DNA from: Niabella beijingensis
GTDB taxonomy: Bacteria > Bacteroidota > Bacteroidia > Chitinophagales > Chitinophagaceae
Direction: 5' to 3'
DNA length: 64,000 bases
Assembly (NCBI RefSeq): GCF_020034665.1
Contig: NZ_JAIQDI010000001.1
Coordinates: 2,046,001 to 2,110,000 of the forward strand
The notes beneath the pieces were generated by a model. That model ran no database searches, was not told the DNA's origin, and saw nothing but the letters and a program-made list of their open reading frames with translations. Positions 15,970 through 27,814 of the stretch are shown piece after piece. Position numbers and translations under genes: made by a program. The first letter of the stretch is position 1; each line of letters begins with the position of its first letter.

Positions 15970-15999
15970 GCCCCTTGTTTCTACAAGGGGCTATTTTTT
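15970..15999 (+). terminator. Rho-independent terminator
   Basis: GCCCCTTGT (15970-15978), loop TTCT and ACAAGGGGC (15983-15991) are followed by TATTTTTT. It ends transcription of the small gene at 15656 and insulates the peptide cluster downstream. Confidence 0.85.
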
Positions 16000-16253
16000 A
16001 CCTTTATTCTTTCAATTCATTTCAAGAGCATACAAAGATTAACTGCATATCTAAAAATTTAACACGCTAACCCCAAAGTTGAAAATTGGCGGGTAAATTT
16101 TCGAAATGTAGGGTTCAATTAATCAGTCATTCACAACTCTAATAAAGGTGTGTGCATAGAGCATCATTGCTTTCACGTAACACATTTTTTATGGGCTTCA
16201 AAACTTTAGAAGTTTGGGTGCAAACAAAATTCTAAACCATAAAAAAAAGTACT
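16000..16253 (+). promoter_or_regulatory. Upstream region of the short peptide gene
   Basis: These 254 bases lie between a strong terminator and the 32-residue peptide gene and should contain its promoter. No exact TAnnTTTG box was found. TAGAAGTTTG near 16208 is a near match with wider internal spacing. LytTR-type regulators bind imperfect direct repeats, but I cannot pick out a convincing pair by eye. Confidence 0.3.
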
Positions 16254-16352
16254 ATGCCAACACTTACAACAATCTTTGAAAATGGAATGAGCATGGACGA
16301 GATTCCCGGATCGGATATCCCAATCGAAACATCCTGTTACCCTCAAACCTAA
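16254..16352 (+). CDS. Short peptide gene, candidate precursor peptide
   Basis: An ATG frame encodes 32 residues: MPTLTTIFENGMSMDEIPGS then DIPIETSCYPQT, then a TAA. The N-terminal half is acidic and leader-like. The last 12 residues contain Ser, Thr, Cys and Tyr and no Lys, and could be the core. It lies between a strong terminator (15970-15999) and an attenuator-like hairpin (16381-16405), so it has its own transcription unit with partial read-through into the acyltransferase operon. That is the usual way precursor peptides are over-expressed relative to their enzymes. Reality as a gene and role as a modified or signalling peptide are inferred from position. The frame is short enough that chance cannot be excluded. 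Confidence 0.5.
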   Translation: MPTLTTIFENGMSMDEIPGSDIPIETSCYPQT

Positions 16353-16380
16353 ATCAGAGAAATCAATTTCAAGTAAAACT

Positions 16381-16405
16381 AAGGAGCCCTAATGGTTCCT
16401 TTTTT
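16381..16405 (+). terminator. Attenuator-like hairpin after the peptide gene
   Basis: AAGGAGCC (16381-16388) pairs with GGTTCCTT (16394-16401) around a 5-base loop, with one G-T pair, followed by TTTT. It sits between the peptide gene and the acyltransferase start at 16425. It covers an upstream ATG at 16392, so that ATG is unlikely to be used. Confidence 0.65.
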
Positions 16406-16424
16406 AATCCATAAATCTTGCGAC

Positions 16425-17552
16425 ATGAATGACATTTTAAAACAACATTATCTGCGCTTATTTAAAATAATGGCAGAATACGAAAGACTCGATATAAATA
16501 TAGATGCTCATTTATTAAGACTTTTTCACCTGGTCAGCGCAGAGTTATTAAACTATTTACCGTCAATCGATTACAAAGATCACAGTCATCTTTTTAAAAA
16601 GATTCTCTTTAATCAAAAACTCAGCCTACTAGAGCAGGAACTACCCGAATTGTTGCATGCAGTTCGATATGAAAATAAGTTTAGTGCTATTAATTTATTA
16701 AAAAGAACCCCTTCTATTATATGCACCTTTCATCTCGGATCCTACAGACTAATAAATCTGTTTTTGGCTGAAAATCAAATTCCATTTTCCCTGGTTGTCT
16801 CAAGAAACGTTATTCAAAAGCAGACAGAATTGATCCAGGAGGCTTTTCGTTCTAGCAATTTGACAAAGCACGCGCAATTGGACCTAATCGACGCTGAGCA
16901 GTCATCTGCGGGATTAAAGATGATAAAGGCCCTCAGATCAAATAAAAGCCTCGTTGTATATCTTGATGGGAACACAGGTGCAGGAAAGCCTTCAATTCTA
17001 AATGAAAACTGCTGCGAAGTAAGTTTCCTGAATAACAAAATTTTTGTGCGCAAAGGAGTAGGGGTTTTATCTCATGCAGCAAGGGTGCCAGTACTGCCTG
17101 TCATTTGCTACCGGAAAAGCCTAACCTCAATAAACATCAAATTCAAGGATCCCATATTCCCTGACAATGGTATGGATCGCGGACGGTTTTCATCACAACT
17201 AATGCAGCAGATATATGACTTTGCCAGCGATTATATAAAAAAATACCCAGGGCAATGGGAGGCCTGGCTTTACTTGTATAAAGTAGCTGTACAAACAGAA
17301 AGAAACAAGGAAATCCCGGAACATTTGCATGAAATGCCTAAAGTGCTAACTTTCAATAGTAAGTGGTATGGCCTATTTACCCTGGACAACAACAATTATA
17401 TCTTTGATAAAAAGGATCTCCTTTCTTACAAAATTCAACCACAGCTGTACGCTTTATTAAACAAATTTCAAAATCGAGCCGCAAAATCAAAAACTATTGA
17501 TGTAATTTTATTGCAGGACCTATATAAAAAGGGTGTATTAATAGCTTCTTAA
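16425..17552 (+). CDS. LpxL/HtrB-fold acyltransferase-like protein with extra C-terminal domain
   Basis: The start is placed at the ATG at 16425 because the upstream ATG (16392) lies in a hairpin; this gives 375 residues. Residues about 95-285 match the LpxL/HtrB lysophospholipid-acyltransferase fold. SIICTFHLGSYRLINLFL holds the family His (His103), SLVVYLDGNTGAG corresponds to the second block, and SFLNNKIFVRKGVGVLSHAA with VPVLPVICYR to the third. The family HX4D/E motif reads His103-LGSY-Arg108, so the acidic partner is replaced by Arg. Residues about 305-375 (WYGLFTLDNNNYIFDKKDLL) form a separate small domain resembling PqqD-like peptide-recognition domains; this is tentative. It starts the operon with the LytS/LytTR pair and follows the short peptide gene. 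It may acylate or otherwise process that peptide. Confidence 0.65.
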   Translation: MNDILKQHYLRLFKIMAEYERLDINIDAHLLRLFHLVSAELLNYLPSIDYKDHSHLFKKILFNQKLSLLEQELPELLHAVRYENKFSAINLLKRTPSIICTFHLGSYRLINLFLAENQIPFSLVVSRNVIQKQTELIQEAFRSSNLTKHAQLDLIDAEQSSAGLKMIKALRSNKSLVVYLDGNTGAGKPSILNENCCEVSFLNNKIFVRKGVGVLSHAARVPVLPVICYRKSLTSINIKFKDPIFPDNGMDRGRFSSQLMQQIYDFASDYIKKYPGQWEAWLYLYKVAVQTERNKEIPEHLHEMPKVLTFNSKWYGLFTLDNNNYIFDKKDLLSYKIQPQLYALLNKFQNRAAKSKTIDVILLQDLYKKGVLIAS

Positions 17553-17562
17553 CCTCTAGTTT

Positions 17563-18657
17563 GTGCCCAACTCATCTCTTTTAATAAATAAAAAAGCGAC
17601 AAAGCTCTTGGGCTGGCATTTTCTTGCCTGGCTTCTTTACACTATATTTCTCCATATAGCAGCGATGCTAACTAAGCCAGATATTTCTATAATCAATACT
17701 TTATTGTACCTGCTTCCATTTTGTTTTACTTTTTATATAAGCATATACGTCCTTGGAATTAATAAGAAAAAAGGAGTCGCTTGGACCATTGCCTCGTTTT
17801 TTATCGTTTTCATATTCATGGCATCCCTGGGATATTTCTATGTGTACTTTATTCTTCCGGAGTTTGGTATTGTAGTATATACATCAAAACAATTTAAACC
17901 ATTTATTCAAGAAGCCGTTCTTGGCTACGTCCGCTTCTTCTCATTTGCTATGCTTTATTTCTATATTCGGGAATCAATACGGAAAGAAAAAAATCTTAGA
18001 TTGCTGCAGCAGGAAAAGTCCCAACGAGAGCTGGAGAACGAACGACTAAAACAGCAGGAGCTTAAAGCCCAACAAGAAAAACTTCAGTACGAATATGCAT
18101 TTTTAAGATCTCAGATAAACCCACATTTTCTGCATAATACTTTGAATACCTTCTTCTCACAAGCCATGCAATACTCCCCGGAATTTGCTGATAACATACT
18201 TAAACTGGCCTCCATTATGAGATACTCGATGGAAGCGCTGGAATTTGACAGTGGAAAAGTTTCCGTTCAGAAGGAGTTGACGCATCTCCAAAACCTTATA
18301 GATATTCATAATCTTCGCTTTGGGGAAAGAAAGATGATTGTCTATGAAATAGAAGGCAATATAAACGGTCATATGGTCCCTCCGCTTTCATTCATAACTA
18401 TTGTGGAGAACGCTTTTAAATATGGCGATTTAACCGACCCAAACTGTCCTATGACGATTAAGGTGGGTCTAACTCCAGGAGAAGTTTCTTTTTACTGTTC
18501 CAATAAGATTAAAAAAAGTAGTGTTCAGATTTCGTCATCCAATATCGGCATTTCCAACCTAAGTAAAAGGCTTGATGTCGCATTTAGCAACCGGTATAAA
18601 ATGAATGCAGAAAAAAAGGGCGAAATGTACTTTTTCTATTTAACGATAAAAGCTTAA
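17563..18657 (+). CDS. LytS-type membrane histidine kinase
   Basis: The 364-residue product starts with GTG, 10 bases after the acyltransferase gene. Four hydrophobic segments occupy residues about 15-135, followed by a coiled coil (about 142-178). The His_kinase domain of the LytS/YehU class follows: LRSQINPHFLHNTLNTFF, with His188 the expected phosphorylation site. A reduced HATPase region has VENAFKYG as the N box. Such kinases signal to LytTR response regulators, and one is encoded 3 bases downstream. There is no extracellular domain beyond short loops, so the signal would have to be small or membrane-associated, for example a peptide or lipid. That would fit the neighbouring genes but is inference. 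Confidence 0.88.
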   Translation: MPNSSLLINKKATKLLGWHFLAWLLYTIFLHIAAMLTKPDISIINTLLYLLPFCFTFYISIYVLGINKKKGVAWTIASFFIVFIFMASLGYFYVYFILPEFGIVVYTSKQFKPFIQEAVLGYVRFFSFAMLYFYIRESIRKEKNLRLLQQEKSQRELENERLKQQELKAQQEKLQYEYAFLRSQINPHFLHNTLNTFFSQAMQYSPEFADNILKLASIMRYSMEALEFDSGKVSVQKELTHLQNLIDIHNLRFGERKMIVYEIEGNINGHMVPPLSFITIVENAFKYGDLTDPNCPMTIKVGLTPGEVSFYCSNKIKKSSVQISSSNIGISNLSKRLDVAFSNRYKMNAEKKGEMYFFYLTIKA

Positions 18658-18660
18658 TTT

Positions 18661-19407
18661 ATGATTAAATGCGTCGTAATTGATGATGAGCAGGCTGCCA
18701 TTGATGTATTAATAAACTACATCAGGCGAGTTTCTGATTTGGAATTGGTTGGAACTTCTACGGACCCCATCAAAGGATTTGATTTGATAAAAAGCACCAA
18801 TCCGGATGTGATATTTCTCGATATCCAAATGGATGAACTTTCTGGAATCGAACTTATGAGTATGCTGAGCCACGAAATTCAAGTGATTTTTTGCACGGCA
18901 TTTTCCGATTTTGCAGTAGAAAGTTATGATCTTGAAGCTCTTGACTACCTTATGAAACCAATACCATTTGACCGTTTCATGAAAGCAGTAAAGAAAATCC
19001 GAAAGTTCCCAAGCAGTTCGGAAAAAATTGGACCGGATGAAATAGCTGACGATTACATCTATGTAAAAACAGAATCTAAGGGTAAAATACTCAGGGTAAA
19101 TTTTGTTGATATCGATTTCGTTGAAGCTAAGAACAATTACATTGCATTCCATTGTGGTAAGAAAATAATTATGGTCTATTCAACAATGAATTACATTGAA
19201 ACATCCCTTTCCTCATCAAACTTTAAAAGAATACATAAATCATACATTATCCCGATTTCAAAAATAGCGCTGATTCAAAACAATTTTTTAATGCTTAAAA
19301 ACTGCGGAGATCAGATACCTATTGGAAAAACTTACAAAACAGATTTGCTTAACCTTGTCAACCATAAGTTACTAAGCGATGGAAATAATTATAAATTTGA
19401 TTGTTGA
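18661..19407 (+). CDS. LytTR-family response regulator
   Basis: This 248-residue protein has a receiver domain at residues 1-120 (VVIDDE acidic pocket, phospho-acceptor Asp54 in IFLDIQMDELSG, K at about 98 in YLMKPI). A LytTR DNA-binding domain spans about 140-245 (IYVKTESKGKILRVNFVDID, FKRIHKSYIIPISKI, and PIGKTYK at the end). It is cognate to the LytS-type kinase immediately upstream. LytTR regulators commonly control peptide-signalling and bacteriocin genes, and the likely target here is the peptide/acyltransferase operon. The target is inferred, not seen. Confidence 0.9.
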   Translation: MIKCVVIDDEQAAIDVLINYIRRVSDLELVGTSTDPIKGFDLIKSTNPDVIFLDIQMDELSGIELMSMLSHEIQVIFCTAFSDFAVESYDLEALDYLMKPIPFDRFMKAVKKIRKFPSSSEKIGPDEIADDYIYVKTESKGKILRVNFVDIDFVEAKNNYIAFHCGKKIIMVYSTMNYIETSLSSSNFKRIHKSYIIPISKIALIQNNFLMLKNCGDQIPIGKTYKTDLLNLVNHKLLSDGNNYKFDC

Positions 19408-19430
19408 AGAACTGCGGGTCTGACGATTGC

Positions 19431-20060
19431 ATGAATAAATATCGTAAATTTAAAAGCCGGAGGGTCAAATATGAAAAAAATTGCCAAATGGAACATCAAA
19501 AAACCAGTACAAAAGTATATCTGCTCGGATCAAAACTAAATGATATTGATTCGTTAATTGTGAGAGATAGTAATGTTTCAGAACTGATCCATTTCAGTTC
19601 TCTAAATGACGCTAAGAATAGGTTTAATTTTCTTTACAAGATTTTACTTTCTCCTTCATTCAAACCCTCAATTCCACCAAGTACCGAAGAACTCCACTAT
19701 CATCAACATTTTATGATGCTAGTCGCGTTTAATCCCGTAGTACTTGAGTTTGAATTAGCAGACTATAAAAATCACTTATTATCCTGGCGAAATGAGAAAG
19801 AATCTACATTCTATACACAAGAAAAGTTTTTCACTACTGACTATTGGTACTGTCCAATGAAAACTGGTTTTATCCAAAAATTCGGAGTCTTAGATATTGC
19901 TGAAGAAATCGAAAAGACTCCATTTATAGACCCCGATGGAAAAATGGTAATCAGGATAAGCGAAATTTCAAGATCAACACCAGGTACGCCAACAGAGCAA
20001 CCTAAGCCAAATATCCAGGAAAAGATTGACAAAATACTGAGAGATCGGGGATTCAAATAA
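19431..20060 (+). CDS. Unknown protein, last gene of the peptide-cluster operon
   Basis: The ATG at 19431 gives 209 residues; a later ATG at 19488 is possible. It begins 23 bases after the response regulator, so it is probably cotranscribed. No signal peptide, membrane segment or known motif is visible. Features include a basic N-terminus (NKYRKFKSRRVKYEKN), a middle section rich in aromatic residues (YHQHFMMLVAFNPVVLEFEL) and a proline/threonine-rich linker (STPGTPTEQPKPNIQEK) before a helical C-terminus. I do not recognise the family. Its link to the peptide system is by position only. It is convergent with the coupling-protein gene. Confidence 0.6.
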   Translation: MNKYRKFKSRRVKYEKNCQMEHQKTSTKVYLLGSKLNDIDSLIVRDSNVSELIHFSSLNDAKNRFNFLYKILLSPSFKPSIPPSTEELHYHQHFMMLVAFNPVVLEFELADYKNHLLSWRNEKESTFYTQEKFFTTDYWYCPMKTGFIQKFGVLDIAEEIEKTPFIDPDGKMVIRISEISRSTPGTPTEQPKPNIQEKIDKILRDRGFK

Positions 20061-26852: not shown

Positions 26853-27814
26853 TGCGCATTTCTGTTTTGTAATGAATTGTGTATCCTGTCTATTGCAAAA
26901 AATATCTGGTAGGCGACCTGGGGTACTATTGCATTTCCAAAGGATCGCAGAGACTCTTTCCTCCATTTCGAAAAGGTAATGTCAACCAATTCAGAGGAAA
27001 TCCCATCATTTCTCCCACAAACAGGGGATTCAGAAGGCCAGTTGCTCCAAGTTGGAATCGAACCAATCCCGGAAGATTGTCCATTTGCTGCTGGTGATAA
27101 GATCGCGCCTGCGGGCCTTTCCAGTCCCGTGCTGTAGGGGTCGGCAATAATCCGGCCGCCGCCAGCTGATGCAAATCCGGCCGAAAGCGTTGGCCATTTT
27201 TGGTAACTATTACTTTCTGATTCTTTTGGAAATTCCGGGTACTGTATGATGCCATTGGAGTTGGCAATAAACCAGATTCTGTTTCGCCGATGGGGCGCGC
27301 CTGTGCCGCAAGCTGGAATAATAAACGGCTGGACCGAATATCCGATTCGCTCAATATTCTTACAGATGGTCCAGGCAATATATTCATGCTCCGTAATGAT
27401 TTCCTGATCTTCTTTTCCAAAATTGGTTTGGCCTCCCAGGCTAACCGGCACACCGGGTTGTACCATACTGAGGATTCCAGCAACATTTTCGCCAACAAAC
27501 CAAGTGGGCCGGACCTCGTCAATAACCCGGAGCATTTCCGGCCAGAGGTAACGATCATCTGACGCACCTCGTCTTTTTCCGGCAATGGAAAACGGCTGGC
27601 AGGGGAATCCCCCGGAAATAATGTCAACTGATCCATAAAACTTTCTTCCATTAAATTTTCTTATATCTTCAAACTGAGAAGCACCGGGAAAATGGAATTT
27701 CAGCACGCTCCGGCAAAATGGATCTATTTCGACATTAAAAACATTTTGCCAGCCCATCCAGGCCGCGGCCAAATCAAAGCCACCAATACCAGAAAAAAGA
27801 CTCCCGTGTCGCAT
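26846..27814 (-). CDS. DNA cytosine-5 methyltransferase (orphan)
   Basis: The 322 residues carry the C5-methyltransferase motifs in order: I (GSLFSGIGGFDLAAAWMG, residues 4-21), IV (ISGGFPCQPFS, with the catalytic Cys at about 71), VI (VGENVAGIL, about 107-115), VIII (HRRNRIWFIA, about 175), and X (SFGNAIVPQVAYQIF, about 292-306). The target-recognition region between VIII and X is short. It methylates cytosine in a sequence that cannot be read from here. No restriction endonuclease is adjacent, so it is probably an orphan enzyme that shields the element during transfer. A second long frame (26926-27651) runs in the +1 phase inside it. Confidence 0.92.
   Translation of the reverse strand: MRHGSLFSGIGGFDLAAAWMGWQNVFNVEIDPFCRSVLKFHFPGASQFEDIRKFNGRKFYGSVDIISGGFPCQPFSIAGKRRGASDDRYLWPEMLRVIDEVRPTWFVGENVAGILSMVQPGVPVSLGGQTNFGKEDQEIITEHEYIAWTICKNIERIGYSVQPFIIPACGTGAPHRRNRIWFIANSNGIIQYPEFPKESESNSYQKWPTLSAGFASAGGGRIIADPYSTGLERPAGAILSPAANGQSSGIGSIPTWSNWPSESPVCGRNDGISSELVDITFSKWRKESLRSFGNAIVPQVAYQIFFAIDRIHNSLQNRNAQC
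26926..27651 (-). CDS. Overlapping +1 frame inside the methyltransferase gene
   Basis: A 241-codon frame lies entirely within the C5-methyltransferase gene on the same strand. Its translation is not random-looking. It contains MDQLTLFPGDSPASRFPLPE, VTSGRKCSGLLTRSGPLG, LLPTPTARDWKGPQ and LNPLFVGEMMGFPLNWLTLP. I recall these phrases from proteins listed as separate products in phages and mobile elements. They lie exactly opposite methyltransferase motifs IV, VIII and X. Either this is a real overprinted gene, or the family arises from reading methyltransferase genes in the wrong phase. I list it with low confidence and discuss it in the findings. Confidence 0.3.
   Translation of the reverse strand: MEESFMDQLTLFPGDSPASRFPLPEKDEVRQMIVTSGRKCSGLLTRSGPLGLLAKMLLESSVWYNPVCRLAWEAKPILEKKIRKSLRSMNILPGPSVRILSESDIRSSRLLFQLAAQARPIGETESGLLPTPMASYSTRNFQKNQKVIVTKNGQRFRPDLHQLAAAGLLPTPTARDWKGPQARSYHQQQMDNLPGLVRFQLGATGLLNPLFVGEMMGFPLNWLTLPFRNGGKSLCDPLEMQ

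Follow-up and report, generated by a model that had tools for sequence, protein, structure and literature searches.

What does a gene of only 32 codons do in front of a lipid-A-type acyltransferase and a LytS/LytTR two-component pair? This arrangement lies in Niabella beijingensis, on a stretch of 64,000 nucleotides (contig NZ_JAIQDI010000001.1, positions 2,046,001 to 2,110,000; hereafter the window) from a genome of 6.59 Mb. The initial annotation read it as a ribosomally made peptide that is lipidated by the acyltransferase and sensed or exported, and our analysis supports that overall reading: the cassette probably produces a ribosomal peptide that carries a lipid and is controlled by the cassette's own two-component pair. 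On the plus strand the 32-residue open reading frame (ORF) is followed by the acyltransferase, the histidine kinase, the response regulator and a last ORF, called the fourth gene below, which ends at 20060. RRE denotes a recognition element of ribosomally synthesized and post-translationally modified peptides (RiPPs).

15970..15991, plus strand: upstream hairpin resembling an intrinsic terminator (9-pair stem, loop of 4, T-rich tail)
16254..16352, plus strand: precursor peptide gene, 32 residues, ATG start, leader motif TIFENGMSMDEI, single Cys at residue 28
16381..16401, plus strand: intrinsic terminator between the peptide and acyltransferase genes (hairpin and T-rich tail), expected to be leaky
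16428..17552, plus strand: acyltransferase of the LpxM/PatA fold, RRE-like domain at the C-terminus; alternative ATG at 16392
16731..16748, plus strand: HLGSYR motif, H114 to R119, with HX4R replacing HX4E (from the homologue alignment)
17340..17549, plus strand: C-terminal RRE-like domain, residues 317-386
17563..18657, plus strand: LytS-type histidine kinase (PF06580, 3.8e-19)
18661..19407, plus strand: LytTR response regulator (Response_reg 1.2e-17, LytTR 1.6e-18)
19488..20060, plus strand: accessory protein of 190 residues, no function assigned

The peptide gene does lie between two hairpins, as first annotated, and the upstream one probably marks the end of the preceding transcript. Within the proposed four-gene operon the gaps of 10 bases (acyltransferase to kinase) and 3 bases (kinase to regulator) hold, whereas the third gap is 80 bases and not 23, as homologues of the fourth gene start at MEHQ (19488). 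The homologue alignment puts the start of the acyltransferase at MNDILK (16428), and its alternative ATG falls inside the terminator-like hairpin.

When named genomes were scanned with an acyltransferase alignment, 79 loci resulted, or 80 with the window. Three precursor profiles, for the Chitinophagaceae type (12 sequences), the Spirosomataceae type (7) and the 'ELEER' type (12), were run on 35,789 six-frame ORFs, each locus being scored with profiles that lacked its own sequences (E<=0.01). A match ending from 700 bases before to 100 bases after the estimated enzyme start, counted as upstream, was found in 50 of the 80 loci, and a match anywhere in 65; those elsewhere occur solely in loci lacking an upstream one. 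The other 15 loci, the window included (E 0.36), fall below the threshold, and 11 of the remaining 14 show by eye a short upstream ORF with a Cys near its end (L015, L032, L039, L041, L042, L056, L081, L082, L087, L091 and L092). Among the matches listed, short plus-strand ORFs stand directly upstream of the enzyme, many with a near-terminal Cys (by eye). None of 13,317 ORFs in 464 kb of control DNA matched the profiles at E<=0.01. Because ORFs of the same type recur at homologous loci and control DNA gave none, the short ORF is more than a chance frame.

The peptide sequences point in the same direction. The window peptide aligns without gaps to that of L014 (pS 0.79, pN 0.15), where pS and pN are the proportions of synonymous and nonsynonymous differences. 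Of 13 peptide pairs, one is identical, two have saturated dS (window/L014 among them) and ten show dN/dS from 0.03 to 0.41; all informative pairs show purifying selection on the frame. The initial annotation had named homologues without an upstream peptide, or a drifting frame, as evidence against a precursor role, and the claim came through both comparisons. In 16 aligned type I peptides, with a consensus leader of xIFxxxxSIxxL, only Met1 and the Cys (16/16) are invariant. Because Cys is frequent in short ORFs generally (17,546 of 24,905 in the background), the residue carries weight only through its fixed position in the alignment. None of 43 relatives in the public protein set has a Pfam domain or a functional name. 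A small conserved gene thus stands beside a modifying enzyme, as in RiPP loci, and it is almost certainly a genuine conserved RiPP-type precursor. The L016 precursor matches both the Chitinophagaceae and the ELEER profiles and therefore bridges precursor types. Tandem near-identical precursor genes were also observed, four in L031:4204-4966, six in L057:11425-12730 and four in L060:10927-11770.

The acyltransferase had been called LpxL-type. Its Pfam score does not bear this out (Lip_A_acyltrans, PF03279, 16.6 bits against a cut-off of 22.3; NF006270, 28.6 against 248 bits), and the curated cut-off scores for lipid A secondary acyltransferases are not reached. The predicted structure decides the matter: its fold matches indicate an LPLAT fold of the LpxM/PatA type followed by an RRE-like C-terminal domain, which agrees with the PqqD-like domain proposed earlier. 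A profile search against sequences of solved structures returned only matches that we judged spurious. The HX4D/E catalytic dyad of LpxL/LpxM is missing, with the H and R of HX4R present in all 120 listed of 146 homologues, and HLGSYR aligns with HCGNWE of the genome's own LpxL-type protein. A plain LpxL role in lipid A was set aside because three other PF03279 members of the genome keep HX4E, and because of the extra domain and the peptide. It is likely that the enzyme, guided by its RRE-like domain, acts on the precursor. As a separate observation, a second copy in one genome (L013 in G051) has one internal TAA and is perhaps decayed.

The two-component genes are of the LytS/LytTR kind, with a PF06580 kinase and a receiver-LytTR regulator; the kinase has three strongly hydrophobic stretches within its first 90 residues and an INPHFLHN motif. 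A promoter box conserved within one group of loci strengthens their suggested tie to the peptide gene. In the window, the promoter features are as follows.

16130..16138, plus strand: weak third half-site TTCACAACT at offset -82, the most distal of the three (over 16 loci this offset ranks third lowest in mean mismatch)
16151..16159, plus strand: second half-site TGTGCATAG at offset -61, placed 21 bases ahead of the main box (mean mismatch 2.4, 16 loci)
16172..16180, plus strand: main LytTR-type box TTCACGTAA, lying 40 bases ahead of GTTTG in the -7 element (mean mismatch 0.5, same offset in 15/16 loci)
16209..16216, plus strand: Bacteroidetes-type -7 promoter element GAAGTTTG (from the anchored promoter analysis), named by what we take to be the -7 consensus

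When 16 type I promoters, the window included, were anchored on the -7 element, 15 of them had TTYRCRTAA at offset -40 with no more than one mismatch, L024 being the exception; in 300 shuffles the count at any single offset never exceeded 2. The shuffles flatter this result because the consensus was taken from the same promoters; the fixed offset and the period are independent of that. The offsets -40, -61 and -82 have mean mismatches of 0.5, 2.4 and 4.2 (5.7 across all offsets), with a period of 21 bases. Of 25 type I loci, 15 carry the composite site ahead of the peptide. In L017 the box is paired with a variant -7 element, and L029, L065 and six Olivibacter/Parapedobacter loci are without the composite site. 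Only the anchored analysis revealed the box: an unanchored motif search recovered the -7 element alone, placing GTTTG roughly at -43 to -67 in the majority of 17 loci, though not in the window. A generic count of direct repeats found them in 6 of 19 loci where 2.1 were expected, and Spirosomataceae-type promoters showed no excess of 20-22-base repeats. In the window genome no wider LytTR regulon was seen (110 composite matches against 117 with the reversed pattern), and one of its six exact composite matches is at the peptide gene. Moreover, an intrinsic terminator follows within 140 bases of the peptide stop in 16 of 17 type I loci examined, with 1.0 expected by shuffling. Judged from these sequence patterns, autoregulation of the cassette by its LytTR regulator is likely.

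The kinase lies immediately downstream in 24 of 80 loci, all within one clade of 25 (support 100/98), whose remaining member stops at a contig edge; the regulator follows the kinase in 22 of these 25. In the Spirosomataceae clade, all 37 loci carry instead a divergent protein related to that of L046, in which Pfam detects a LytTR domain. Within the family of the window, 12 of 294 genomes searched have an acyltransferase match (the window's own counted), one of them weak (E 6e-4) and with internal stops, and five other listed genomes of the genus gave none. The nearest named locus by tree is L014, in Niabella pedocola. Two homologues in metagenome-assembled genomes labelled Pseudomonadota (L052 and L084) group together in the tree, by horizontal transfer or mis-binning.

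Some relatives lie beside RiPP-type or fatty-acid genes. LanB is found in L049 and L057, and an arginase-family protein in L057 (Pfam) and in others by similarity. A graspetide-type ATP-grasp (TIGR04192) occurs in L041, L048 and L066, with E from 1e-45 to 3e-55, below the equivalog cut-off. M50 proteins are above the Pfam cut-off in L016 and below it in L029 and L031, and that of L016 has the daptide and LiaK proteases as its nearest NCBIfam models, below cut-off. Ketoacyl synthase, FabA-like, carrier-protein or AMP-binding genes in L049 and L088 (Pfam) suggest that an acyl chain is supplied, and such relatives with RiPP enzymes and fatty-acid genes make acyl transfer to a RiPP the natural reading. 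L034, L059 and L060 show fatty-acid-synthesis genes by eye. 'ELEER'-leader peptides and an LpxL-like enzyme were observed together with LanB (L049, L057) or with fatty-acid-synthesis genes (L049, L088, L034, L059, L060). These six loci are candidate lipidated RiPP clusters, and L049 is a candidate lipidated lanthipeptide. No LanB match was found in the window genome, but the control genomes gave none either.

The conserved peptide, the RRE-like and acyltransferase folds with HX4R, the promoter boxes, the terminator and the gene linkage were computed directly, and on them we build the following mechanism. The RRE-like domain would bind the precursor through its leader motif, which is very probable, and the LpxM-like domain would move a fatty acyl chain onto the peptide, which we hold to be likely. 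For the acylation site we lean slightly towards the invariant Cys near the C-terminus, giving a thioester, or an amide if the leader is cut before the Cys. The acyl peptide may then leave the cell or stay in the membrane, to be sensed by the LytS kinase of the same operon; whether the kinase senses the peptide, and whether the peptide is a pheromone, we judge each to be evenly balanced. An activated kinase would in turn activate the LytTR regulator, which likely binds the tandem boxes, spaced by 21 bases, of the peptide promoter and so would raise the peptide transcript, and the leaky terminator would hold the enzyme and sensor genes at a lower level.

The product may instead be an antimicrobial or otherwise self-acting lipopeptide, with LytS/LytTR sensing envelope stress or another cue. 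Some relatives do lie in lanthipeptide- or graspetide-like surroundings, products of those types are often antimicrobial, and LytS-type kinases sense other things too. However, an M50 homologue occurs in only 3 of 25 type I loci (transporters and immunity genes lay outside that search), and the boxes are conserved in front of the peptide gene and not enriched in the rest of the window genome, so we regard this alternative as unlikely. Less probable still is that the LpxL-like enzyme no longer transfers acyl groups and acts as a scaffold for the leader or catalyzes another reaction, leaving the peptide unlipidated; the Arg in place of the acid of HX4E in all 120 listed homologues favors this, and we consider it doubtful. 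That the short ORF is an RNA leader or attenuator with incidental translation, as the flanking hairpins might suggest, is highly improbable given amino-acid conservation across genera, the invariant Cys column and a pN far below pS.

Lipidated peptide synthesis under two-component control thus remains our preferred reading. The fourth gene appears to stand outside the core of the cassette. At least 8 homologous proteins are listed, the window's own among them, and of the 7 others, 3 lie on contigs equal in size to those of close acyltransferase homologues. The model of its protein is of low confidence (predicted local distance difference test, pLDDT, 63.8). As first noted, no protease or exporter is visible beside the window copy of the cassette. 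About 60 bases separate the end of the cassette from a convergent gene for a coupling protein, after which come relaxase and MobC genes; Pfam identifies coupling protein, relaxase, MobC and serine recombinase in window:20120-31941. Similarly, homologues of the coupling protein and the relaxase are found downstream in L014, and both lie upstream in L016, L029 and L065, so that conjugation-type neighbors occur in 5 of 25 type I loci, L029 and L065 being near-identical. The cassette may therefore sit on an integrated mobilizable element.

Other features of the surroundings were also observed. A zeta-toxin-like kinase (PF06414, 3.4e-8; window:13395-14894) with small ORFs upstream is a possible toxin-antitoxin module. 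On the minus strand, a C-5 cytosine methylase gene (PF00145; window:26846-27814) overlaps over 726 bases with a 241-residue ORF (26926-27651) in another frame of the same strand, a possible overlapping gene whose product presumably resembles a phage-type protein family, as judged by eye. All or some of the genes for MauE (identified by Pfam in the window), a small secreted protein, SusD, SusC and a TlpA-like protein are seen by eye in window:5800-12732 and near L016, L022, L026 and L082.

Taken further, the locus could tentatively represent a Bacteroidota-native, comQXPA-like peptide quorum sensing, in which an LpxM-derived, RRE-guided enzyme would S-acylate the Cys, LytS would sense the product and the LytTR boxes would amplify it; beside conjugation genes in Niabella-type genomes, this may couple transfer to cell density. 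The cassette is possibly a new form of lipidated RiPP system, and possibly of peptide signalling as well, for which it offers a testable candidate in Bacteroidota. If so, this phylum would gain a new route to make, and possibly sense, lipid-tagged peptides, and lipid-A-type acyltransferases with a built-in leader reader would be a new class of RiPP-lipidation enzyme. The family should be easy to mine by its peptides, its boxes and an enzyme signature of RRE-like domain plus HX4R. Its more elaborate relatives have LanB or graspetide-type enzymes and fatty-acid-synthesis genes.

Among known systems, comQXPA of Bacillus comprises a small prepeptide, an isoprenyl transferase, a histidine kinase and a NarL-type regulator, with the lipid on a Trp in the C-terminal part of the peptide. 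The cassette shares the gene layout and a predicted lipid on the C-terminal part, but its enzyme is an LpxM-like acyltransferase bearing an RRE-like domain, a Cys would take the place of the Trp and the regulator is of the LytTR type, and no homology was seen; its enzyme has the LPLAT fold and the window peptide lacks Trp, so it does not belong to comQXPA. The agrBDCA system of Staphylococcus has a peptide, a histidine kinase and a LytTR regulator, its peptide promoter carries tandem boxes spaced by about 21 bases, and its AgrB is a membrane protease/cyclase. All of these except AgrB recur in the cassette, whereas agr is not known to include an acyltransferase, and no AgrB-type membrane protease was matched among the cassette ORFs. 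Selidamides, lipoavitides and nostolysamides are N-acylated RiPPs, fatty-acylated on Lys/Orn side chains by GNAT-fold enzymes. A fatty-acylated ribosomal peptide would be common to them and the cassette; the enzyme is GNAT-fold there and has the LpxM fold with its own RRE-like domain here. DAG-RiPPs, or RiPP-lipoprotein hybrids, are described as lipidated RiPPs of Bacteroidota that enter the general lipoprotein pathway after modification by an MNIO (multinuclear non-heme iron-dependent oxidative enzyme) (PMC12636315); a lipidated RiPP of Bacteroidota would be shared, and a dedicated acyltransferase is found only here. The initial annotation knew of no such gene set, and indeed neither an LpxL/LPLAT-type RiPP enzyme nor such a cassette was found in the open-licence literature searched, as far as its accessible parts extend (including PMC10352776, PMC12636315 and PMC10734526; subscription papers lie outside that scope). 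Compared with LpxL/LpxM and PatA themselves, the cassette enzyme has HX4R in place of HX4E/D, an extra C-terminal domain and a peptide gene upstream.
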